Position numbers and translations under genes: made by a program. Under the pieces are notes generated by a model that saw only the letters and a list, made by a program, of their open reading frames with translations, was not told where the DNA came from and made no database searches. A DNA stretch of 39,904 nucleotides from an uncultured Alphaproteobacteria bacterium (GTDB lineage Bacteria; Pseudomonadota; Alphaproteobacteria; Bin95), in assembly GCA_938083135.1 (NCBI GenBank), contig CALLKY010000039.1, forward strand, positions 1 to 39,904. Reading direction: 5' to 3'. Each line of letters opens with the position of its first letter. The first letter of the stretch is position 1. This document shows positions 214-10,937 of this stretch, in pieces.

Positions 214-705
214 ATGTCGCTGGTCGCCCGATCAAAACGCTACAGTGTTCTGTTGGCGGATGATGATGAAGAAGACGCATTCACTGTCCGGCGCGGCTTT
301 ACGAAGTCTGATCTGGATTTTGAGTTTACCCATCTGTCAGATGGGGAAGAATTGCTTGCCTATCTCGAAGAGCTAGAGAACCGAAGTGACGATTCTAATC
401 TCTCTGCAGCGGCCGATGGAGATAGCGGGTTACTGCAGCCAGACTTAATTCTGCTCGACATTAATATGCCGCGCATGAACGGGTTTGAAGTGCTGGACCG
501 CATGCGGAGCAATCCGAAACTGGCCGTGATTCCAGTTGTTATTCTAACGTCGTCGAACAATGACGCAGATGTTTCGGTCTGCTACAGCCTAGGCGCACGC
601 TCATATTTCGTGAAGCCGCTGACGTTATCTGAAATGGCGGCTTTCGTTGAATCGATTGCGAATTATTGGTTCCGGTCCTGCAGGCTACCCACGAAAACCA
701 TGTAA
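214..705 (+). CDS. Stand-alone response regulator (Rcp1-like receiver)
   Basis: This is a single-domain CheY-like receiver of 163 residues with no output domain. The acidic pocket is visible in VLLADDDEEDAF (residues 12-23). The phosphoacceptor is Asp82 in LILLDINMPRMNG, the switch Thr is near 112 (VVILTSS), and the conserved Lys134 lies in YFVKPL. The insertion of about 15 residues before the phosphorylated Asp, and the YWF...LP tail, match the Rcp1 group that pairs with phytochrome-type or hybrid histidine kinases. No kinase is next to it; its left neighbour is an IS end, so a partner may have been separated. The start is ATG with AAGGAG 11 bases upstream, a rather long spacing. The gene is convergent with the DMT transporter, with a 4-base gap. 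Confidence 0.88.
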   Translation: MSLVARSKRYSVLLADDDEEDAFTVRRGFTKSDLDFEFTHLSDGEELLAYLEELENRSDDSNLSAAADGDSGLLQPDLILLDINMPRMNGFEVLDRMRSNPKLAVIPVVILTSSNNDADVSVCYSLGARSYFVKPLTLSEMAAFVESIANYWFRSCRLPTKTM

Positions 706-709
706 ATAT

Positions 710-1594
710 TCACGCCTCGGTCTGGGCTGCTCCAGGCCGCTCAGCCCGCCAAGCGGCAAAGCTGTGGGCAGCTAGGGCTGCAACAATCAAGCCACCGCCA
801 AGTAGAGTCGCTTCACTCGGCGCTTCTTCTAACGCCAGCCATACCCATAGCGGCCCAAGCGCCGTTTCCAACAGCATCAGTAGCCCGACCTCAGCGGCGG
901 GTAAGCGTCGCGGTCCTAGCGTTATCAATGTGAATGCGATGGGTAGGATAAATACGCCAACGGCGATCAAAACAGGCCAGTCACCATCTGCTGGCTGCAG
1001 CGTACCAGCCATGCAGCCGCAAGCGATGGCCGACAGAATGGATGACAATCCAAGCGCCGGCGTCATATCACAATCCCGCCGAATGCGACCAATTGTGAAG
1101 AAGCCTGCGATAGAGATGGCGGCGATTAGGGCCCCCACATTGCCCGCCGATGTGCCGCCCGAAAACCCAGCATCTAGGATGATCGCGATACCAGCAGCGA
1201 TCGCCAGTGCTGCAACCCATGTGCGCAGTGGCGGTCGCTCGCCTAGGAATGCAGCGAAGATCGCAGCGAAGACTGGTGCCGTTGCTAGGATGGTCAATGT
1301 TTCCGCGACGGTGCTGTGGGTTAGCGCATAGACGAAGCCGATATTGCTGATCGCCATACAGATGGATGCCGGTGCGAGCGCCCAGCCAATGGCCCGAATG
1401 TCCCCGATGAGCCTTCTGCGCCGAATGACCATGAGCCCGCCCATAATCGTCAGGCCCATCAGGAGTAGGCGCCAGAATGCCGCTGTCCAAAGGTCTGACT
1501 CAAGCAAGCGAAACAGTAAGGCGTCTGGCGAAAGCACAACTGCGCCTAGGCCTGTCAGGAGAACGCCGATCCAGTAGCTGCGCTTATCGGTCAT
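710..1594 (-). CDS. DMT-superfamily (EamA) transporter
   Basis: This is an inner-membrane protein of 294 residues with about ten hydrophobic helices arranged as two EamA repeats (roughly residues 8-135 and 150-280). That is the standard size and layout of drug/metabolite transporters, which export amino acids, metabolites or drugs. The second repeat contains the glycine/proline-rich helix near ...LGPRRLPAAEVGLL..., typical of EamA proteins. It is the last gene of the long minus-strand operon. Its ATG overlaps the stop of the MFS gene by 4 bases (ATGA), so translation is probably coupled. The substrate cannot be told from sequence. Presence in the HyuAB/PrpD operon suggests transport of the substrate or product of that pathway (inference). 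Confidence 0.85.
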   Translation of the reverse strand: MTDKRSYWIGVLLTGLGAVVLSPDALLFRLLESDLWTAAFWRLLLMGLTIMGGLMVIRRRRLIGDIRAIGWALAPASICMAISNIGFVYALTHSTVAETLTILATAPVFAAIFAAFLGERPPLRTWVAALAIAAGIAIILDAGFSGGTSAGNVGALIAAISIAGFFTIGRIRRDCDMTPALGLSSILSAIACGCMAGTLQPADGDWPVLIAVGVFILPIAFTLITLGPRRLPAAEVGLLMLLETALGPLWVWLALEEAPSEATLLGGGLIVAALAAHSFAAWRAERPGAAQTEA

Positions 1595-2766
1595 CGCCTA
1601 CGGCTTTCAGTTAGGAATCCGACAGCCGATACGGCAGCCAAAATAGCGACAAAGAAAAATCCGGCCTCATACCCGCCAGTCGTCGCCGCTAAAAGTGCGA
1701 ACGCGGCTGGGCCGATAATTGCGCCAGAAAGCGTTAGTGCCATGGCACCGGATGTGGCGAGAGATACACTATCCTTCGGCGCAGCCGTGGCAACGGTCGC
1801 CAGGTAAACGCCGTTCCAACTGGCCGCTGATGCGCCAAACAGAATGGCGATTGCCGTGGCACCTGCGATTCCAAAGCTGGGGTCAAGCAGTGCTGCGGCA
1901 CAAGCGGCGGCGATAATGAACCCGCCGATTATCGCCATGGTCTGTGCAGCACCAATTTTATCCGCACACCAGCCCCAGCCAACACGGGCGAACATACTGG
2001 CGATCAAGGCAAAGGCCAGTGTGCGGCCCGCCGCCAGTGGGTCGATTGCCATGCTCTCAACCAGTACCGTGACATAGCCTGCGGTGAAGCAGAACTGCGC
2101 TGCTGAATAGGCCATGCTCAGTAGGCAGAGCCGCAAAATAGCAGGTGTGCGAATGACAAACAGCAAGGGAGCAATGAGGCTGGACTTTGCGGCAGCACGG
2201 CCATGCCGGTCATCATCCATATCGCTACGCCACGGCTGAAACGCGAGCGCCATGAGCAGAGCGACAACCGCCAACCCAAGCATTGTCGCCTGCCAGCCAT
2301 AGGCGCTAGCCAGCCAGGGCGACGTAAGCCCCGCGCCCGCCACCCCAAGCGGTACGCTGGTCTGCTTCATGGAGAATACACGCCCGCGCATCGCTTCCGG
2401 CGTCAGTTTGGCCAGGAGGTGCGAACTTGCCGGATTGGCGAGGCCATACCCAGCACCTAATGCCAATGCTGCAGGGAGTAGGGCGGGCAGCGCGCCTGTT
2501 GCCAGCAACCCCAGCCCGAATGCGGCGAGACCCAGCATGAATTGGCTGACCCGCATGGCACCATAACGCCTTACAGCCCGGCTCGCCGCCAATGCCGCCA
2601 GAATAGCACCTGCATTGGCAAGGGCCGCGAAATACCCGACGAAATCAGGGTCAACTTGCAGGTCCGGTGCTACGGTGGGTGCCAGCACAGCCATTTGCTG
2701 CGCTGCGAGCACCACCATTGCCTGGATCAGCAACATTGCCACCAGGGCACGCCATACGGCGGCCAT
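1591..2766 (-). CDS. MFS transporter
   Basis: This 391-residue protein has about twelve predicted membrane helices. An MFS-like loop between helices 2 and 3 (SRAVRRYGAMRVSQF, near residues 62-76) and a central hydrophilic loop (FQPWRSDMDDDRHGRAA, near 195) separate two six-helix halves. This fits a major facilitator superfamily permease, perhaps of the cyanate/organic-acid type. It starts at ATG, 24 bases after the HyuA stop, and its 3' end overlaps the DMT gene by 4 bases. Within this operon it is the best candidate for importing the compound handled by HyuA/HyuB and the PrpD-like enzyme, but no substrate-specific residues can be recognised. Confidence 0.85.
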   Translation of the reverse strand: MAAVWRALVAMLLIQAMVVLAAQQMAVLAPTVAPDLQVDPDFVGYFAALANAGAILAALAASRAVRRYGAMRVSQFMLGLAAFGLGLLATGALPALLPAALALGAGYGLANPASSHLLAKLTPEAMRGRVFSMKQTSVPLGVAGAGLTSPWLASAYGWQATMLGLAVVALLMALAFQPWRSDMDDDRHGRAAAKSSLIAPLLFVIRTPAILRLCLLSMAYSAAQFCFTAGYVTVLVESMAIDPLAAGRTLAFALIASMFARVGWGWCADKIGAAQTMAIIGGFIIAAACAAALLDPSFGIAGATAIAILFGASAASWNGVYLATVATAAPKDSVSLATSGAMALTLSGAIIGPAAFALLAATTGGYEAGFFFVAILAAVSAVGFLTESRRR

Positions 2767-2790
2767 CAGATTAGTCCGTTCATGGGGTGA

Positions 2791-4845
2791 TTAGGCCTGC
2801 CGCTCAAGGATGACATTGCCCAAGCTATCGACCCTGGCGGAAAGGTCAGGCTCGACGAAAATCGTGGCGTCTGGTTGTTCAAGGACTGCTGGGCCATTGA
2901 TGACAGCGCCAACCGGAAGGGCGAGGCGGTCGTAAATCGTGGCGTCTGTCCACGCGCCATCGACATAGACGGGACGGCTGCCCGTCCTTGCGGTCGCAAT
3001 ATCGCCGCCGTCTGGTGCCAATTGCGTCAAGTCAAACCGCGGCCGGACACCAATGACAGCCGCGCGCAAATTCATCACGCGGATGACAGGTCCATCCAGC
3101 AGGCGGCCGTACTGGCTGAGATATGCGGCTTCAAATGCGGATTGAACGCTGTCAGCATTGATCTCTAGTCTGGAAACATCATCCGTGGACGCGATGCGGA
3201 CCGGGATTGCATGGGTCTGGCCCTGGTAATGCATATCCAGCTCAATCTCGATCCGTCGGGCGTCCAGTGCGACGCCTGCGTCGTCGAGTGCCGCCGTCCC
3301 ATCACGCCAATATGCAGCGATAGCATCGGTCAGCACTGATGTATCCAGGCTCGGCAATGGCCGGTTTATGGTCTGCACGAAGTCTCGGCGCATATCGGCG
3401 ATAACGCAGCCCAGCGCGGACAAGACGCCCGGATAGCGCGGGCTGATGGCACCCGCGAGGCCGACTTCATTTACCAGCGCACCCGCATGTAAGGCGCCGC
3501 CACCGCCAAACGGCATGGCCAGGAACGATTTCGGGTCATGGCCACGTTCAATTGAGACCAGCCGGATAGCGCCGGTCATGCGTGCATTGGCGACGCGAAT
3601 GACAGCTTCAGCCGCTTGCTCAGGATCAAGCCCCAGCGCATCGCCGATAGTGGCCTGCAGCGCCGCACGCGCGGCCTCTGTATCCAATCGCGAAAGTTCG
3701 CCGCCAATAGGGCGCTCGGGATTAATGCGGCCAAGGACGATATTGGCGTCAGTGACCGTTGGCCGGGTGCCGCCTTTGCCATAGGCAACTGGCCCTGGGT
3801 CCGCGCCAGCTGATTCTGGCCCGATGCGGAGCATGCCGCCTGCGTCCACCCATGCGATCGATCCGCCACCAGCCCCAATCGTCACGATCTCCACCATGGG
3901 CGCGCGCGCAGTCATGCCGAAGTCGATGGAAGTTTCAGCCGCCAGCGCCGTCTGCCCGTCAGCAATCAGGGACACATCGAAGCTGGTGCCGCCCATGTCA
4001 CAGGCGATGATGTTCGGATATCCAGCCGCCACGCCAACGCGTTGCGCCGCAACCACGCCAGCAGCGGGACCGGAAAGGGCAGTGCGGATTGGCGCACGGG
4101 CAGATTCAGCCGCCGTCATCAACCCGCCGTTTGACTGGACGATCAACAGCCCCGCATCACCGCCCGCTGCCAAGGCGTCATGCAGGCGGTTGATATAACG
4201 GCCCATGGTCGGTTGTAGATAGGCGTTTAGGACAGCGGTGGATGTGCGTTCAAATTCCCGGATTTCAGGCAAAATATCTGTCGCTGCCGTGATATGTGCG
4301 TTCGGCCAGACACGGGCGACGGCGGCGCGGGCGCGTTGCTCGTTTTCAGGGTTGGCGTAGGCGTTGACGAAAGCGATGGCGACGGACTCGCATCCGGCGT
4401 CGGCTAAGGCGCGGGCGGCAGCCTCAACGCCTGCTTCATCAACTGCTTGCTCAATTGTTCCATCTGCCAGCGTGCGCTCGCGCACTTCCAGCCGATCCTG
4501 GCGTGCGGCGACAGGTTTGAATGTCCCGCGTAAGCCCCAGGTGTGCGGACGATCACGGCGACGCATCTCCAGGACATCCCGGAAGCCTTCTGTTGCGATG
4601 AGGCCCGTACGGGCACCCTTGCGTTCCAGCAGCGCATTCGTGCCGACCGTTGTACCATGGACGACGGTGCCGATGTCCGCCAGCGGTGCGGCCAGGCCTA
4701 GGCCGCGCACGAATCCGATGGATTGATCTGCAGGTGTTGATGGCGTTTTGGCCGTCAGCACCTGGCCTGTTGCCTGCTCTAGCGCGAACACATCCGTGAA
4801 TGTGCCGCCGACATCAACGCCGATGATCCAACGCGGGCCACTCAT
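2791..4845 (-). CDS. Hydantoinase/oxoprolinase A subunit family (HyuA-like)
   Basis: The 684-residue protein is the ATPase-fold subunit of the HyuA/HyuB hydantoinase, 5-oxoprolinase and acetone carboxylase family. The N-terminus carries the phosphate-binding motif GVDVGGTFTDVF (residues 9-20). This is followed by the HGTTVGTNALLERKGA block (near 64-79), the second ATP motif DMGGTSFDVSLI (near 283-294) and TIGAGGGSIAWVD (near 321-333). The length is normal for HyuA. Family members use ATP to activate and open cyclic amides such as hydantoins, 5-oxoproline or caprolactam, or to carboxylate ketones. The exact substrate cannot be inferred. The gene overlaps hyuB by 4 bases (ATGA), as expected for subunits of one enzyme. 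Confidence 0.93.
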   Translation of the reverse strand: MSGPRWIIGVDVGGTFTDVFALEQATGQVLTAKTPSTPADQSIGFVRGLGLAAPLADIGTVVHGTTVGTNALLERKGARTGLIATEGFRDVLEMRRRDRPHTWGLRGTFKPVAARQDRLEVRERTLADGTIEQAVDEAGVEAAARALADAGCESVAIAFVNAYANPENEQRARAAVARVWPNAHITAATDILPEIREFERTSTAVLNAYLQPTMGRYINRLHDALAAGGDAGLLIVQSNGGLMTAAESARAPIRTALSGPAAGVVAAQRVGVAAGYPNIIACDMGGTSFDVSLIADGQTALAAETSIDFGMTARAPMVEIVTIGAGGGSIAWVDAGGMLRIGPESAGADPGPVAYGKGGTRPTVTDANIVLGRINPERPIGGELSRLDTEAARAALQATIGDALGLDPEQAAEAVIRVANARMTGAIRLVSIERGHDPKSFLAMPFGGGGALHAGALVNEVGLAGAISPRYPGVLSALGCVIADMRRDFVQTINRPLPSLDTSVLTDAIAAYWRDGTAALDDAGVALDARRIEIELDMHYQGQTHAIPVRIASTDDVSRLEINADSVQSAFEAAYLSQYGRLLDGPVIRVMNLRAAVIGVRPRFDLTQLAPDGGDIATARTGSRPVYVDGAWTDATIYDRLALPVGAVINGPAVLEQPDATIFVEPDLSARVDSLGNVILERQA

Positions 4846-6539
4846 GAGCTTGGCTCCACGCCATAGGCACTGCGCGCCGCATCTGCTGAGATATATCCGG
4901 CGTCCAAATCTGCTTGCACCGCAGCCGGATCACGTTCGTTGACGGGGCCGTATCCGCCGCCGCCGGGGGCTTCCAGGCGGACACGCATACCGCGCTCTAG
5001 CTTTACGCCAACGATTTTCGACGCCATGGGAGGGATGCCAGCATTGCGGCCTTCATCTGTATCAAACCGGAACCGATTTCCAGCCGCTGGACCACCGCCG
5101 AGAATGCCGGGAGGGTTGGTTCGACCGCGCTCGCCAAATAGAAATACGTTAGCAGATTTCTCCAGCAGCTCGATTTCATAGATCGCGCCAAGGCCGCCCC
5201 GATGCTTTCCTGGGCCGCCAGAATCAGCGCGAAGCGCCCATTGGCGAAAGGCAACGGGGTATGCGGCTTCCAAAATTTCCAGCGGTGGGATCGTCGCCGT
5301 AGAGATCGGCGCATTGCCATGTTGCAGTCCATCGCTTTCAGCGGACCCACCATGACCGCCACCAAAGAATGAAAACATGACCCAGGGCGCACCCGTATCG
5401 CTGCGGCGCCCGGCAATGGAGAGCGCGTTGATGGTGCCGTAGGCACAGCCGTTTGATCGTTCTGGTGCGACATCAGCCATGGCCTGAAACACAAGGTCGA
5501 TCAGGCGGAGGATGGTTTCGGTGTATCCGCCCACTGGCTTCGGCGCTTCCGCTGCCAAGATTGATCCGTTTGGAATCAATACGTGGATTGGGGCCATTGC
5601 GCCGGCATTGGCGGGAATTTCATCAAACACATGCTTCATCGTCACATAGCAGGCAGCGAATGTTGTCGCGCGGCTGATATTCACTGGCCCCAAGCATCCA
5701 GGTGCGGAACCGGCAAAATCAAGTGTCATCTCATCGCCTGAAATGGTGATTGTCAGCACCAGCTTCAGCGGCTCATCAACCACGCCGTCGTTATCAAGCC
5801 AGTCTTCGGCGCTGTAGACGCCGTCTGGCAGCAGTGCAATTTCTGCCCGCATCAACCGCTCCGCCCGATCCCGGAGTGCTGCCAATGCCGTTTCGATCAC
5901 TTCATCGCCATAGTCGTCGAGCAGTCCGTTCAGGCGCTCCATACCGAGATCAAGCGCGTTGATCTGTGCATTCATGTCGCCGTAGAGGCTGACGGGCAAG
6001 CGCGAATTGGCGCTGAGCATTGCCGTGATATCTGGCTGATATTCGCCTGCCCGATAGAGTTTCACGGGCGGGCAAACGAAACCCTCCTGCCACGCTTCAG
6101 TCGCTGCCGGATTATAGTTGCCCGGCACGGCACCACCGACATCATGCCAATGGCCGACAGATGCGATCCAGCAGAACACGGCACCGTCGCGAAACACTGG
6201 GCGGACCAGCCTGAAATCCGAAAGATGCGTGCCACCGTCCCAAGGGTCGTTGAAGATGTAGACATCGCCATCGGCCAAATCGCCATCTATCGCGGCTTTC
6301 TTGATGACGGTTTTGACCGCGAAGGCCATCGCACCAACAAAGATCGGTAAGCCAGATTTGCCCTGAACGAGCGTCTCGCCCGTCTCCCGATGGTAAATGC
6401 CGTGGGAGGCGTCATGGGCTTCGGCGATGATCGGGTTGAACGCAGACCGGAACAGGGTCGCGTCCATCTCGTCGACTATTTGCTCCAAGCGGCCATTCAG
6501 AACTGCGAGTGTGACGGGATCAAGCGCGGCATCACTCAT
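4842..6539 (-). CDS. Hydantoinase/oxoprolinase B subunit family (HyuB-like)
   Basis: The 565-residue protein matches the HyuB family (PF02538) over its full length. Visible motifs are the N-terminal LAVLNGRLEQIVDEMDATLFRSA-type block, FNDPWDGGTHLSD with its probable metal ligands (near residue 95), the HWHDVGG box (near 130), and the glycine-rich C-terminal RLEAPGGGGYGPVNERDP, a hallmark of this family. It forms a complex with HyuA and supplies the hydrolytic part of the ATP-dependent ring-opening reaction. The start codon overlaps the stop of the PrpD-like gene by 4 bases, and the stop overlaps the hyuA start, so the three genes are translationally coupled. No acetone carboxylase gamma subunit is nearby, which argues for amidohydrolase rather than carboxylase activity. 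Confidence 0.93.
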   Translation of the reverse strand: MSDAALDPVTLAVLNGRLEQIVDEMDATLFRSAFNPIIAEAHDASHGIYHRETGETLVQGKSGLPIFVGAMAFAVKTVIKKAAIDGDLADGDVYIFNDPWDGGTHLSDFRLVRPVFRDGAVFCWIASVGHWHDVGGAVPGNYNPAATEAWQEGFVCPPVKLYRAGEYQPDITAMLSANSRLPVSLYGDMNAQINALDLGMERLNGLLDDYGDEVIETALAALRDRAERLMRAEIALLPDGVYSAEDWLDNDGVVDEPLKLVLTITISGDEMTLDFAGSAPGCLGPVNISRATTFAACYVTMKHVFDEIPANAGAMAPIHVLIPNGSILAAEAPKPVGGYTETILRLIDLVFQAMADVAPERSNGCAYGTINALSIAGRRSDTGAPWVMFSFFGGGHGGSAESDGLQHGNAPISTATIPPLEILEAAYPVAFRQWALRADSGGPGKHRGGLGAIYEIELLEKSANVFLFGERGRTNPPGILGGGPAAGNRFRFDTDEGRNAGIPPMASKIVGVKLERGMRVRLEAPGGGGYGPVNERDPAAVQADLDAGYISADAARSAYGVEPSS

Positions 6540-7918
6540 TCCGCCGCCTCCACTTGGTCGCTAACTGCTGCGCGCCGTGTGAACGCGCTGGCCAGGGAGC
6601 GGATATCCTCCAGCGCTCTTGCATTCATAGCGATTTGGAGTGCTTGGCTGGCAGCGCCCTGACCGAGCAGAGGCGTTGTGAGCCGCAGAAATTTGTCGTC
6701 GAGCAGTGCATCGTCGAACGGCTCTGCTGGGTCGCCGCCGGTGATGTCCCGGCGCTTGGTTAGAACCGCGCCCGATTTCAGGCGGATTGTCAGCTCCGAA
6801 ATCCGGTTGTCGGGCAAAGCCTTGTCCATTTCCGTATCCGCGATCAACGAGACGCGTTTGGCAAGGGCCTGGGTCACGGGGTCGGTCAAGGCATCGCCCC
6901 GGAATGCGTCCAGCCAGGTATCGCCATCCCGGCGGATCGCTGTCGCCAATGCAAAAGGCAGGGAGAACTTGGCGGCGAGCATGTTGGTTGGGGCAGCGTC
7001 ATCAAGCTCCGTTGCCATGGTGTAGGCGCGGACGTCAATTTGCTCGACAGTTTCGGGTGTGATGTCGCCGTGGTTCGCCATGCGCAAATCTTCAAGCGCA
7101 TCCAGGGCTGCGTGATTATAACGACAGCAGGCGTGGCGCTTGAAATAGCCTTCTGCAATCGCCCAGTCCGCTCCAAGGCCAGATGTTAGCGCTGAAGCAT
7201 CCCATGCGGACCCGATGACAGCGCCGAAGACATTTTGAAGTGCGCCCTTGTCCCCCGTAAAGCCTGCTTTGATCAAGCGGCGCGCCTGGATTGCGTGCTG
7301 CGCTGAAAGGCCCGTATAGGCGTTCCGCACCGTAGCGCCTTCAAGCATGGACGGGCGGCTGGTTGCGAGTGCCATTGAGGCCGAAAGGCGGATCGTTTCG
7401 TCGATTTCTTTAGCATCTGCGCCATCGAAAACAGCAAGCGCGGCGGCACCGCCAACGACGCCCCATACCCCATGGGGATGCATTGTTGGACGGAGCGATG
7501 CTCCAGCGCCGGTTCTGGTCGCAACTTCATATCCAAGGGCCAACGCATGAAGGAACCGCGCGCCATCGCCGCCTTCCTGCTCTGCCCAGGCTAGAAGCGG
7601 TGGAACAATATGAATGGCGGGGTGGCCTTTGGATGCAGCAGATCCTTCATCTAACTCCAGGAAAACGCCGGCGCATCCGTTCAGAAAAGCCGCCTGGCCA
7701 GCCTCAATTTGCCGGACATGTCCAAGTGCCGTTGCTGGCCCAGCGCCGCCCGCTATGAGCGTTGCCGCCGCCAGGGACTGCATTTCTGGCTCCTGCGCGC
7801 CCGCGAGGATGGCGGCGCATGTGTCAGCCAGCACCCGAGCGGATTTTGCATAAACAGCGTCTGGCAAGCTGCCGACAGATTGCGCCGCCAAAAAATTACT
7901 GAGTTCGATAGACGCCAT
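6536..7918 (-). CDS. MmgE/PrpD family protein
   Basis: This protein of about 460 residues belongs to the MmgE/PrpD family, which includes 2-methylcitrate dehydratase, cis-aconitate decarboxylase and iminodisuccinate epimerase. Recognisable parts are the N-terminal helical region (ANFLA-like start, DTCAAILAG), the GHP.IHIVPPLLA block near residue 100 and HACCRYNHAALDAL in the middle, matching the conserved H.CC..H.A site region. An in-frame TTG lies 21 bases further upstream (7939), but the ATG at 7918 has AAGGAG eight bases before it, so I prefer the shorter form. The gene overlaps hyuB by 4 bases. In this family the substrate varies widely; context suggests dehydration, epimerisation or decarboxylation of an acid made by or fed to HyuAB. 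Confidence 0.88.
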   Translation of the reverse strand: MASIELSNFLAAQSVGSLPDAVYAKSARVLADTCAAILAGAQEPEMQSLAAATLIAGGAGPATALGHVRQIEAGQAAFLNGCAGVFLELDEGSAASKGHPAIHIVPPLLAWAEQEGGDGARFLHALALGYEVATRTGAGASLRPTMHPHGVWGVVGGAAALAVFDGADAKEIDETIRLSASMALATSRPSMLEGATVRNAYTGLSAQHAIQARRLIKAGFTGDKGALQNVFGAVIGSAWDASALTSGLGADWAIAEGYFKRHACCRYNHAALDALEDLRMANHGDITPETVEQIDVRAYTMATELDDAAPTNMLAAKFSLPFALATAIRRDGDTWLDAFRGDALTDPVTQALAKRVSLIADTEMDKALPDNRISELTIRLKSGAVLTKRRDITGGDPAEPFDDALLDDKFLRLTTPLLGQGAASQALQIAMNARALEDIRSLASAFTRRAAVSDQVEAAE

Positions 7919-7970
7919 CTGGTCCGCTCCTTCATTCAAGAATGCGAGCGTACCTTGGATTCCCGCTGGA

Positions 7971-8867
7971 TCAACGGACTGTTTTCAGGGCCATTAAATC
8001 TGCGAGAGAAATTTTTGCTAACAGCGTGTTCTGCGGCCATTTTTGATTGTCGTCTGAGACCAACCAAATCACTATGCGGCCTTGGTCCTCTGCGATGGCC
8101 AAGCCTTCCCAGTTCTCACTGGCAACAATACCTTTGAGGCTAATGTGGCGTTCAGCAGTGATTGGCTGATCTCTTTCCAAAGTCGCTGCTGCGATATAGG
8201 CGATCCGGGCGGAAAAGAATGGCGGAAGGAAGCCATTGAAGCGCCGTTCCAGAACGAGGAGATCGCCATTGGGCAGTTCAGCGGCGTCAACGGGCTCAAA
8301 CCCGTCGGAGACTGGGTATTCGCGGGCAGCAAGGATTGCATTGTCGATGATCCAGGCTCTACGCAGATCGCCGCTGCCGCCTTCCGAGATCACCAGTAGA
8401 CGCCCGAAGTCGAGAACCGCTAAAGCCTCAATCCCAGCATTCCGAGGCAGTGCCTTGATCGCATGTGGCCGCAATACGCGTGCCGGTCGCATAAGCAGGC
8501 CCTCAGCATCGCCCTCATACCAGGCAATGCCTCCGCCTTGCTCAAAGCTAACGATCCATGTGTCACCGGGGCCACGGCGCAGAGCTTCCGGATCGTTCAG
8601 CCTGCGGGGCAGTTTGATTTGGCCAATCCGGGCCATGGCTTGATCTGCCTGCATCGGCATGCGGTACACATCGCCCCGGTCGCTGAGCGCTATGAGCGTA
8701 TTTGTCTCACGGTGCCATTCCAACCCAGACAGACCACCGGTGAGCCGCCCATCCATATGGCTGCGCGGAAACAGGCGGACTGTCGCCGGACTATCGCCAT
8801 CTGCGATTACGGGTGTCGAGCAGGCAGCTAGCAGCAGCGCCAGGGCCGCGCCTTTTATGCGCTTCAA
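7971..8867 (-). CDS. Phytase-family esterase-like lipoprotein
   Basis: This secreted or membrane-anchored protein of about 298 residues resembles the 'esterase-like activity of phytase' family (PF13449), a beta-propeller-like fold. The sequence shows LSGLEWHRETNTLIALSDRGDVYRM near the start, GIEALAVLDFGRLLVISEGG in the middle and NWEGLAIAEDQGRIVIWLVSDDN near the end, all typical of the family. The reading frame is open far upstream, but that part overlaps the alpha/beta hydrolase and reads as nonsense. The TTG at 8867 overlaps the hydrolase stop (TTGA) and is followed directly by a lipoprotein signal ending LLLAAC, so I place the start there. Enzymatic activity is unproven in most homologues. 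Confidence 0.8.
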   Translation of the reverse strand: MKRIKGAALALLLAACSTPVIADGDSPATVRLFPRSHMDGRLTGGLSGLEWHRETNTLIALSDRGDVYRMPMQADQAMARIGQIKLPRRLNDPEALRRGPGDTWIVSFEQGGGIAWYEGDAEGLLMRPARVLRPHAIKALPRNAGIEALAVLDFGRLLVISEGGSGDLRRAWIIDNAILAAREYPVSDGFEPVDAAELPNGDLLVLERRFNGFLPPFFSARIAYIAAATLERDQPITAERHISLKGIVASENWEGLAIAEDQGRIVIWLVSDDNQKWPQNTLLAKISLADLMALKTVR

Positions 8868-9655
8868 CAATCGTCTGGCACGGGCAGCGATAGCTCGGCT
8901 ACAGCTTGGCAAAGTTGGCGGAGGTCGCTTTCGCGGGATAGCCGATGGTCGCCGTCCTTGATGAGATGGAGGCGCGCATCGGGTGTCGTGGCTTGGCCCA
9001 AAATCTCCAGCGCCAGTTCCCAGGGCACCGAATCGTCCAACATGCCGTGCAGTAACCGGATACGGCCATCGAAATTGAACGTGCCCGTTAGAACAGAACA
9101 ATCGTCACCGTCATCAAGCAGTGCCCGGGTGAACACATAAGGGTGCGGATCATAGGGTGTGGGGCGGCCGATCTGGCCATCACGGGCGAGGGTCGCTTGC
9201 TCCTCGGCAGTAAGTTCATCACGGAAACGGCGGGTGAAATCGGGCGCGGCAGCGATACCAACGAGACCGGCAACCCGGCCTGGGCGGTCTAGGGCAGTGC
9301 GCATCATCAACCAGCCGCCCATGCTGGACCCAACGACGATTTGTGGACCTTTGGTCAGTTGATCAATCACAAGGGCTGCATCATCCGCCCATTCGCTCAA
9401 CACTGTTTCTTCGAATACGCCTGACGATTGGCCATGGCCCCGACAATCGAAGCGCACGAAGCTCTGGTCACGCTCAGCGCAGAATGCATGCAGGCGCTCT
9501 GCTTTGCCGCCGTCCATGTCGGACCTAAGCCCATGGATGAATACCACGCCCGGTAGGCTTTCCGCCTTGCCGACATGGCGGCGGTAGGCGATATATCCGC
9601 CATCAGGCCGATCAAGGCGCTCGGGCGGGGGCAGGGCGGTATCTGCGTCTGTCAT
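8864..9655 (-). CDS. Alpha/beta hydrolase (serine esterase/acyltransferase fold)
   Basis: The 263-residue cytoplasmic protein has the full alpha/beta-hydrolase signature. The oxyanion-hole HG is in VVFIHGLRSD (near residue 38), DCRGHGQSSG follows, the nucleophile elbow is GSSMGG (near 112), the acid is in GMLDDSVPW (near 209) and the histidine is in DGDHRLS (near 239). It most resembles the ABHD10-type and prolyl-oligopeptidase-like esterase groups. The start is ATG with a GAAGAG motif about nine bases upstream. It is the first gene of the minus-strand operon, divergent from the glycosyltransferase. The next gene begins at a TTG overlapping its stop. The natural ester substrate is unknown. 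Confidence 0.88.
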   Translation of the reverse strand: MTDADTALPPPERLDRPDGGYIAYRRHVGKAESLPGVVFIHGLRSDMDGGKAERLHAFCAERDQSFVRFDCRGHGQSSGVFEETVLSEWADDAALVIDQLTKGPQIVVGSSMGGWLMMRTALDRPGRVAGLVGIAAAPDFTRRFRDELTAEEQATLARDGQIGRPTPYDPHPYVFTRALLDDGDDCSVLTGTFNFDGRIRLLHGMLDDSVPWELALEILGQATTPDARLHLIKDGDHRLSRESDLRQLCQAVAELSLPVPDDC

Positions 9656-9788
9656 TATGATCGCTCTTCAAAAGGATTCAGTGGTGTTATTCCGGCCGAA
9701 ACAGCCGCCGCTTCGCTTCGCCCATTCTAGCGGCGCGTTGGCGCTTGACCAAGCGTCCCGGGATGCGATGCGGAGTGTGTTCGATGGC

Positions 9789-10937
9789 ATGGGGCAGCGC
9801 CTGACTGTATTGCAGCTTATGCCGCGTATAGAGGCGGGCGGCGCCGAAATTGCGGCATTAGGTGCAGCGGAAGCCGTGGCACTTGGCGGCGGTCGTTCAA
9901 TTGTGGCAGCGGCGGGCGGGCCGGTTGAGCGCTTGAAGCGTATCGGCGCAGAATTCGCAGAAGCCCCGCTGGATGCACGCGGCCCTGTTGCTATTGGCCG
10001 GAATGGCAGCCGGATAAAGCGGCTCATTGATGAATATCAGGTGGATATCGTTCATGCCCGTACGCGCGAAATCGCCTGGGCCGCACGCCAGGCAACCAAA
10101 GGCTCTCGCGCTATTCTCGTCACCACATGCGGCGGTGACGCGCCTTTCAATGATGCGGGTAAGGATGCCGGCGCGCTTGGCGAAGGCGATCACATTATCG
10201 CTGGTTCCGAGCATGTCCGGGGCTTGCTGATCGACGATGACAGTGCGCGCGATGGCAAAATCTCTGTCATTCCAGACGGCGCTAATCTGGCGGTATATGC
10301 CGCCGAAGCGGTTGGGCCGCAGCGGCTAACAACGCTCGCCCGCGCTTGGGGCATGCTGGAGGAGCCTGCGCCGACAATCTTGGCACCAGGGCCGACAGTG
10401 CCGGAACGCGGCAAGCATGTCCTTGCCCGCGCCCTTGGCGAGATTGCGCATGCGCCGGGACACGCGGATCTCGTCGCGATTATTCCGGGTGAATTAAAGG
10501 CCAAGGACACATACGCGCAGCAACTCGCCTGGATCGCCCGCAAGCGAGGTGCCACGGGCCGGATTTTTCTGGCGGGCGCTTTGACCGATATTCCGGCTGC
10601 AATGATGCTGGCGGATATTGTCGTCTCTGTACCGGTGGAACCCTTGGGGCAGGACCCAATCGCTGCAATGGCGGCGGGGCTGGGCAAGCCCGTGATCGGT
10701 GCGGATATCGGGGCGACCGCGGAAGTGGTTGTCGATGGCGTAACCGGCAGGCTTGTGCCGCCGGATGACCCAGAAGCACTTGGCCGCGCGATTACAGAAA
10801 TTCTGGCTGCTAGCGCTAAGGAGAAGGCTGACCTATCAGCTGCGGCCCGAACCTGGGCGCTCGCCAAATTCTCTGCGACTGGCAGCGCGTTAGCTGTTAT
10901 CCGGCAATATGCGGAGCTGATGAAAGCTGCAAAATGA
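9789..10937 (+). CDS. Glycosyltransferase family 4 protein
   Basis: This is a GT-B fold glycosyltransferase of about 382 residues. The chosen start puts the family's usual N-terminal strand, TVLQLMPRIEAGGAE, right at the beginning. Further on are HARTREIAWAARQA (Rossmann domain 1), SEHVRGLL (linker) and the donor-binding region with PLGQDPIAAMAAGLGKPVIGADIGATAEVV and the G.LVPPDDPEAL loop, equivalent to the E-x7-E zone. The frame is open back to an ATG at 9657, one base from the divergent hydrolase start. The extra 44 residues look non-homologous, so ATG 9789 (or 9768) is preferred. It probably acts in lipopolysaccharide or exopolysaccharide synthesis at the inner membrane. It stands alone rather than in a polysaccharide cluster. 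Confidence 0.87.
   Translation: MGQRLTVLQLMPRIEAGGAEIAALGAAEAVALGGGRSIVAAAGGPVERLKRIGAEFAEAPLDARGPVAIGRNGSRIKRLIDEYQVDIVHARTREIAWAARQATKGSRAILVTTCGGDAPFNDAGKDAGALGEGDHIIAGSEHVRGLLIDDDSARDGKISVIPDGANLAVYAAEAVGPQRLTTLARAWGMLEEPAPTILAPGPTVPERGKHVLARALGEIAHAPGHADLVAIIPGELKAKDTYAQQLAWIARKRGATGRIFLAGALTDIPAAMMLADIVVSVPVEPLGQDPIAAMAAGLGKPVIGADIGATAEVVVDGVTGRLVPPDDPEALGRAITEILAASAKEKADLSAAARTWALAKFSATGSALAVIRQYAELMKAAK

Follow-up and report, generated by a model that had tools for sequence, protein, structure and literature searches.

A HyuAB-PrpD gene array of an uncultured alphaproteobacterium as a possible reduced derivative of a conserved gene cluster

The HyuAB-PrpD array and its predicted cyclic-amide hydrolase

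The stretch of DNA analyzed here (the window; 39,904 nucleotides) is contig CALLKY010000039.1 of assembly GCA_938083135.1, from an uncultured Alphaproteobacteria bacterium, and is the whole of contig C39 in genome G000 (4.15 Mb, 163 contigs, completeness 99.99). Positions 710-9655 are filled by seven open reading frames (ORFs) on the minus strand, all with labels above the Pfam gathering score, and three of them, encoding HyuA, HyuB and an MmgE/PrpD enzyme (PrpD hereafter), are the main subject of this analysis. HyuA (2791..4845, 684 amino acids; Hydantoinase_A 312 bits, with Hydant_A_N and Hydant_A_C) is the predicted ATP-binding subunit of an ATP-dependent cyclic-amide hydrolase, and HyuB (4842..6539, 565 amino acids; Hydantoinase_B 561 bits) is its predicted metal-binding, ring-opening subunit. 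PrpD (6536..7918, 460 amino acids) carries both the N and C domains of its family (PF03972, 120.7 bits; PF19305, 100.5 bits; cut-offs 32.1) and is a probable hydratase or dehydratase acting after HyuAB; its ATG at 7918, with AAGGAG upstream, looks a better start than a possible TTG at 7939. The first-pass annotation described a one-strand array with four 4-nt overlaps and gaps of up to about 50 bases, and this layout is borne out: the overlaps lie at EamA/MFS, HyuA/HyuB, HyuB/PrpD and phytase/alpha/beta hydrolase (ABH), and the gaps are 24 nt (MFS-HyuA) and 52 nt (PrpD-phytase). The array is thus operon-like, and from the spacing we infer that the seven genes may share one transcript. In positions 500-10200, neither promoter-like sites (3 vs 3.6 in shuffles) nor terminator-like sites (8 vs 8.1) are in excess. 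As had been noted, the seven-gene set holds no regulator; the closest one, a response regulator, lies on the plus strand (214-705).

In alignments with the caprolactamase CapAB, HyuB keeps the metal tetrad (Asp43, His105, Asp108 and His130, corresponding to CapB Asp41, His99, Asp102 and His124), and HyuA keeps the phosphate-site residues Asp11 (DVGGTFTD) and Asp283 (DMGGTSFD), corresponding to CapA Asp11 and Asp295, as well as the adenosine-site motif GxxPGP (GADPGP, PGP at 350). Mutation of the Asp-His-Asp-His metal ligands in CapAB is described as abolishing caprolactamase activity (PMC8453981). By its tetrad, phosphate-site and adenosine-site motifs, the window HyuAB is predicted to be a member of the ATP-dependent lactamase family, and both subunits look functional. 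Like the window enzyme, CapAB of Pseudomonas jessenii (6YRA) is a two-subunit ATP-dependent lactamase with a conserved tetrad and ATP-site Asp, and its B gene precedes the A gene. However, the caprolactamase subunit models, although the best NCBIfam matches, give 523 bits for HyuA and 305 bits for HyuB against equivalog cut-offs of 1000, and caprolactamase proper was rejected on this ground. The best PDB matches of both subunits are N-methylhydantoinase (7HK5 and others) and caprolactamase, ahead of acetone and acetophenone carboxylases; N-methylhydantoinase is one fused chain of 1288 amino acids, whereas the window has two separate genes. Because no curated equivalog reaches its cut-off, homology cannot supply a substrate name. 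At E 1e-60 or better, the window genome has 15 HyuB matches and each of the 13 relatives has 4 to 15.

These scores also bear on whether HyuAB is an ordinary 5-oxoprolinase or hydantoinase with unrelated neighbors. Such enzymes belong to the same superfamily, and caprolactamase chains have been deposited under both names, but the closest NCBIfam models are those of caprolactamase; no oxoprolinase model was among the NCBIfam matches, the existence of such a model in NCBIfam not having been checked. Since the lyase, hydratase and flavoprotein genes beside HyuAB orthologs (below) have no obvious role for 5-oxoproline either, we consider this explanation very unlikely.

A conserved HyuAB cluster in other Alphaproteobacteria

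A profile search with HyuB across species genomes confirmed at least 498 relatives, of which the best 80 were analyzed, a sample biased to the close relatives of the query. The counts below refer to 78 orthologous loci outside the genus (the genus loci L101 and L102 are left out) and, for each count, to loci with enough flank. In 69 of 74 loci a PrpB-like lyase gene is the same-strand neighbor of HyuB, HyuA is followed by an isochorismatase-like hydrolase in 67 of 72 (strict on distance and downstream strand; 68 of 72 in a looser count), and HyuA, this hydrolase and a flavoprotein stand in a row in 52 of 64. Within 3 kb upstream of HyuB, 47 of 64 loci have LeuC, 4 have PrpD and none has both. 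Over the whole locus, LeuC and PrpD occur together in 7 of the 78, LeuC alone in 43, PrpD alone in 7 and neither in 21, and the idea that the two are strict alternatives is suggestive only. Thirteen loci are without a lyase or hydrolase match; some of these are contig ends, and L126, L135 and L163 are real exceptions within the stretch examined. In a control of 20 paralogous HyuB neighborhoods (30-45% identity), hand-picked from four genus genomes, hence from other organisms than the 78 loci, and with some stretches cut by contig ends, lyase, hydrolase and flavoprotein were found in none; a LeuD match occurs in one, a Liv-type transporter in one and an acyl-CoA dehydrogenase in two.

Individual loci illustrate the arrangement. 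On a Roseomonas plasmid, reached via PrpD relatives, PrpD, a PrpB-like lyase, HyuB, HyuA, a 'cysteine hydrolase' and an FAD enzyme lie in a row; similar HyuB surroundings occur in Neorhizobium with PrpD and in Azospirillum ramasamyi and Sulfitobacter with LeuCD, and a Paraburkholderia HyuB set has LeuCD and no flavoprotein match. HyuAB with PrpD thus recurs in other genomes (Thalassobaculum, Neorhizobium and Roseomonas). In a HyuB tree, the genus rows group together as a single clade within the cluster group, as part of an 11-row set that includes 7 cluster rows (Thalassobaculum, SAR116 and Rhodospirillaceae metagenome-assembled genome loci) and has a Shimodaira-Hasegawa-like approximate likelihood ratio test (SH-aLRT) support of 96. 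The tree had 80 rows (56 of 86 cluster loci, the other 30 having been dropped; 4 genus rows; and 20 paralogs) and was a quick search under LG+G4, with long-branch warnings among paralogs. Because the genus HyuB nests inside the cluster clade, the window HyuAB derives from the cluster type. None of the lyase, hydrolase and flavoprotein genes of the cluster is present at the window locus.

The cluster 'cysteine hydrolase' has Gly at the nucleophile position of 3kl2 and 6xix. Among copies surveyed from loci L101-L186, L031 and L091, VTNGGV is found in 76 of 77 (for example at L110:13821, L134:13977 and L185:12809-13417) and the motif was not found in one; a narrower motif, with only F or Y before GG, was too restrictive (13 of 69 matched). 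Of the 77 copies, 76 have the Asp motif and 73 the Lys motif, and the Neorhizobium copy has weak matches to RutB and biuret hydrolase models. A Cys-type amidase step was considered for the cluster and is judged unlikely because the nucleophile Cys is replaced by Gly. True isochorismatases (EntB, PhzD) are likewise not known to carry this Cys and use acid catalysis to split a vinyl ether, and enol-ether or enamine cleavage is the more likely predicted activity. The lyase keeps K[KR]CGH in 68 of 68 copies, and the Neorhizobium copy scores 297 bits with the methylisocitrate lyase model (cut-off 354); the flavoprotein of the same locus resembles flavocytochrome c and TcuA, under both cut-offs.

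Some clusters vary further. In Tistrella mobilis, plasmid pTM1 (L029) carries PrpD, lyase, tautomerase, flavoprotein and racemase genes, and pTM2 (L182) carries HyuBA and the hydrolase with acyl-CoA dehydrogenase, CoA-transferase and LeuCD, a split and perhaps CoA-based version of the cluster. A PuuE-type gene (polysaccharide deacetylase family) lies in or beside the HyuAB cluster at L091:17035-17949, L103, L104, L110, L128 and L158, mostly with a His-type ABC transporter, and the L091 copy exceeds the allantoinase cut-off. In Sulfitobacter pontiacus BL28 plasmid p2 (L186:10680-12745), HyuA is annotated as two ORFs; it is intact in Sulfitobacter sp. SK025.

The locus in the genus and the affinities of PrpD

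The remaining four genes of the array are read as accessory or, in the case of ABH, as a probable old neighbor. The EamA-type transporter (710..1594, minus strand; EamA 79 bits) and the MFS transporter (1591..2766, minus strand; MFS_1 116 bits) lie downstream of HyuA. The phytase-like gene (7971..8867, minus strand; PF13449 105 bits) encodes a predicted lipoprotein whose N-terminus, LKRIKGAALALLLAACS, is lipobox-like by eye; it would start from a TTG at 8867 or 8870, overlapping the stop of the ABH gene. ABH (8864..9655, minus strand; Hydrolase_4 57 bits) has GSSMG at residue 109 and DGDH at 234. A divergent glycosyltransferase gene (9657-10937) sits 1 bp from ABH if read from the ATG at 9657; because alignments with relatives from outside the genus begin at residue 28 or 50, a later ATG (9768 or 9789) is the likelier start, which would leave space for promoters between the divergent genes.

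We compared the locus across 14 family genomes, the window's included; the genus comprises the window genome and G010-G013. HyuB orthologs of 79-84% identity occur in G010, G011 and G013, and the best match in G012 is 43%. The order in G010 and G011 is ABH-HyuB-HyuA-EamA, with about 65 and about 300 bases between ABH and HyuB, and this EamA is 58-59% identical to that of the window; in G013 it is ABH-phytase-HyuB-HyuA, then an ORF unlike the window MFS, by eye another MFS carrier. No EamA match was found beside HyuAB in G013, and no MFS match at E 1e-8 beside HyuAB in G010, G011 or G013. In G012 (83% complete, 660 contigs), glycosyltransferase, ABH, phytase and PrpD follow one another up to a contig end inside PrpD. 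Contig C448 of G012 has a short inverted repeat at its start (L081:1-60) that may be an artefact of assembly. The full seven-gene set is seen only in the window. ABH has a match in all 14 family genomes, with no HyuAB match adjoining it in 9 of the 13 relatives, all outside the genus (some stretches reach only 1.7-2.5 kb downstream of ABH), and a divergent glycosyltransferase match lies within about 1 kb of it in 11 of 13. ABH is thus probably a bystander and old neighbor, and the ester hydrolysis step proposed in the first-pass annotation is unsupported. In the simplest history, HyuAB and then other genes came to lie behind an ABH-glycosyltransferase pair that was already old.

This history raises the possibility that HyuAB, PrpD, the phytase-like gene and the transporters were inserted serially behind ABH and share transcription without forming a pathway. 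The variable content of the locus within the genus and the ABH genes without HyuAB in nine relatives are as expected from such stacking, and so is the scatter of the phytase-like protein, which is matched in four of the 14 family genomes, three times at this locus (the window, G012 and G013, not G010 or G011). But HyuAB and the same PrpD subfamily co-occur in several other alphaproteobacterial lineages, and HyuB and PrpD overlap by 4 nt in the window, so that coincidental stacking seems to us possible, though doubtful.

For two of the cluster partners, the lack of an ortholog-level match extends from the locus to the window genome. No hydrolase ortholog was found there (best E 2e-6 with the G389 query, which finds itself at 1.7e-135 and the independent control G108 at 2.8e-85; the same search in G013 gives a 34% match at 5.4e-24), nor a flavoprotein ortholog (best 1.6e-24 at 32%; controls 2.2e-123 and 1.6e-121). 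Cluster lyases are 54-93% identical to the lyase query (72 loci with a match), and the window genome has three matches of 39-42%, elsewhere than at the locus. The full route is therefore not encoded at the ortholog level, and distant homologs could stand in. A ring opening with no dedicated downstream lyase suggests that a harmful cyclic amide is removed rather than used for growth, in a short salvage or detoxification route with EamA and MFS exporting the opened product. The lack of ortholog-level hydrolase and flavoprotein matches agrees with this, as does the EamA gene that comes after HyuA in G010 and G011 as well, whereas among the best 80 loci uptake systems are matched in 38 (Liv-type), 14 (TRAP) and 6 (His-type). 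However, the direction of transport by EamA and MFS cannot be read from sequence, and the PrpB-like lyases elsewhere in the genome could act in trans. We regard this route, a special case overlapping the derivation from the cluster that we favor, as rather unlikely.

Within the family, an ortholog of the window PrpD occurs only in G012 (98% identity), so that PrpD is present in two of five genus genomes. Its best PDB match is iminodisuccinate (IDS) epimerase (E 3.7e-26), which like cis-aconitate decarboxylase belongs to the MmgE/PrpD family. Both differ from the window protein in having the Lys of TKPxH-like motifs where the latter has the Arg of TVRN. TVRN is found in 15 of 19 HyuAB-linked rows, a count that includes the window PrpD and one duplicate pair, and in 10 of 15 unlinked rows and 2 of 24 own-family rows. 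FKRHACCRYNH, also considered as a signature, is present in just 7 of 19 linked rows and was not used. A standard 2-methylcitrate dehydratase is rejected, with 29 bits against the 950 of the PrpD equivalog in NCBIfam (one PrpD model matched). A PrpD tree was built from 53 of 58 rows, after removal of 5 duplicates (matches with <280 aligned or <350 total residues excluded). In it the window PrpD falls in a 25-row group with the G012 ortholog, 14 of the 17 other rows linked to HyuAB and 9 of the 13 unlinked ones, with an SH-aLRT of 84, which is not strong; 21 of the 22 own-family rows lie outside this group, as do 3 linked rows, and the window PrpD is thus separated from the paralogs in its own genome.

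Proposed function, history and meaning

Taken with these comparisons, the reading we favor, with moderate confidence, is that the HyuAB-PrpD array is a reduced, relocated derivative of the conserved cluster and carries out cyclic-amide opening followed by (de)hydration. HyuA would use ATP to activate the amide group of a small ring (a lactam, an imide or a hydantoin), HyuB would hydrolyze the activated amide at its metal site, and PrpD would then add or remove water on the opened acid. HyuAB would be what is left of a cluster that also has a PrpB-like C-C lyase, an isochorismatase-like hydrolase, a TcuA-like flavoprotein and, in many cases, a hydratase of the LeuC or PrpD type. In the genus it would have been placed beside the old ABH gene with EamA or MFS carriers, PrpD in the window and G012 being seemingly recruited separately. 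The activity, the order of steps and the loss of the other cluster genes are all predictions from gene content and homology. The first-pass annotation had proposed HyuAB with PrpD acting on a substrate it left unnamed, and this core idea is supported, its ester step aside. For PrpD it had offered dehydration or epimerization. The former is favored in the wider sense of (de)hydration, because some clusters carry this PrpD type where others carry a LeuC-type hydratase, and epimerization may also apply, given the IDS epimerase match.

Several observations weigh against a functional derivative of this kind. PrpD is absent beside the orthologous HyuAB in three of the four other genus genomes (G010, G011 and G013), and it would thus be dispensable for the HyuAB role in the genus; together with the missing phytase-like gene in G010 and G011, this means that the full set is not conserved even within the genus. 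In the fourth relative, G012, no orthologous HyuB was found, and because the contig stops within PrpD, HyuAB next to that PrpD is not demonstrated. Nine unlinked PrpDs fall in the window's PrpD clade. Moreover, a careful 28-row PrpD tree (30 rows dropped beforehand) rejects a clade of the window PrpD with the Thalassobaculum-type PrpDs, whose HyuB belongs to the sister group (approximately unbiased (AU) test, p 0.015). Vertical co-inheritance of PrpD with HyuAB from a Thalassobaculum-type cluster is accordingly disfavored, although the long branch keeps this from being final, and the window PrpD was probably recruited separately. If that is right, the association has arisen repeatedly and is not a mere leftover. 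Function may also have shifted once the partner genes had gone.

The cluster from which we would derive the array has counterparts in known metabolism. The methylcitrate cycle uses PrpD and PrpB, and nicotinate fermentation uses dimethylmaleate hydratase and dimethylmalate lyase. Like the large clusters, these modules pair a PrpD- or LeuCD-type hydratase with a PrpB/ICL-type lyase; the large clusters add HyuAB, the isochorismatase-like hydrolase and the TcuA-like flavoprotein, whereas the window keeps just PrpD and HyuAB. Tricarballylate-to-aconitate and methylcitrate chemistry are models for the flavoprotein, hydratase and lyase, and because the three look like a variant of this chemistry, the opened product would be a substituted succinate or maleate. 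Five-membered imides and pyrrolinones are therefore attractive as substrates, a guess from chemistry. A much bolder extension, to which we give only a slim chance, is that a widespread, undescribed alphaproteobacterial pathway degrades pigment-derived five-membered nitrogen rings, with ring opening by HyuAB, nitrogen removal by the Cys-less hydrolase, desaturation by the TcuA-like flavoprotein, hydration by PrpD or LeuCD and cleavage to pyruvate by the PrpB-like lyase, the window being a minimal HyuAB and PrpD offshoot. Candidate rings, again as a guess, are tetrapyrrole-derived maleimides, succinimides and pyrrolinones (hematinic acid, methyl-ethyl-maleimide, BOX compounds). Hematinic acid and related compounds are reported from leaf and herbivore samples in one study, in which the maleimides themselves went undetected (PMC7318184).

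In a literature search that reached few subscription papers and may in part have missed slash spellings, no description of a HyuAB-PrpD set or of the large cluster was found, in agreement with the earlier remark that the combination is not recognizable as a described pathway. One match names PrpD in the title of a cited reference, and its comparison is between acetophenone carboxylase genes and hydantoinases. The conserved HyuAB cluster is thus apparently undescribed. Annotation of HyuA and HyuB, both of them common, is difficult, and one ortholog group is now separated by a tight, testable context that predicts a catabolic route, in which the 'cysteine hydrolase' is shown to be without its catalytic cysteine. 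For the window itself the meaning is more modest, that of a reduced derivative. Should the substrate prove to be a natural ring compound that is abundant, a part of carbon and nitrogen turnover that has no assignment would be opened to testing.

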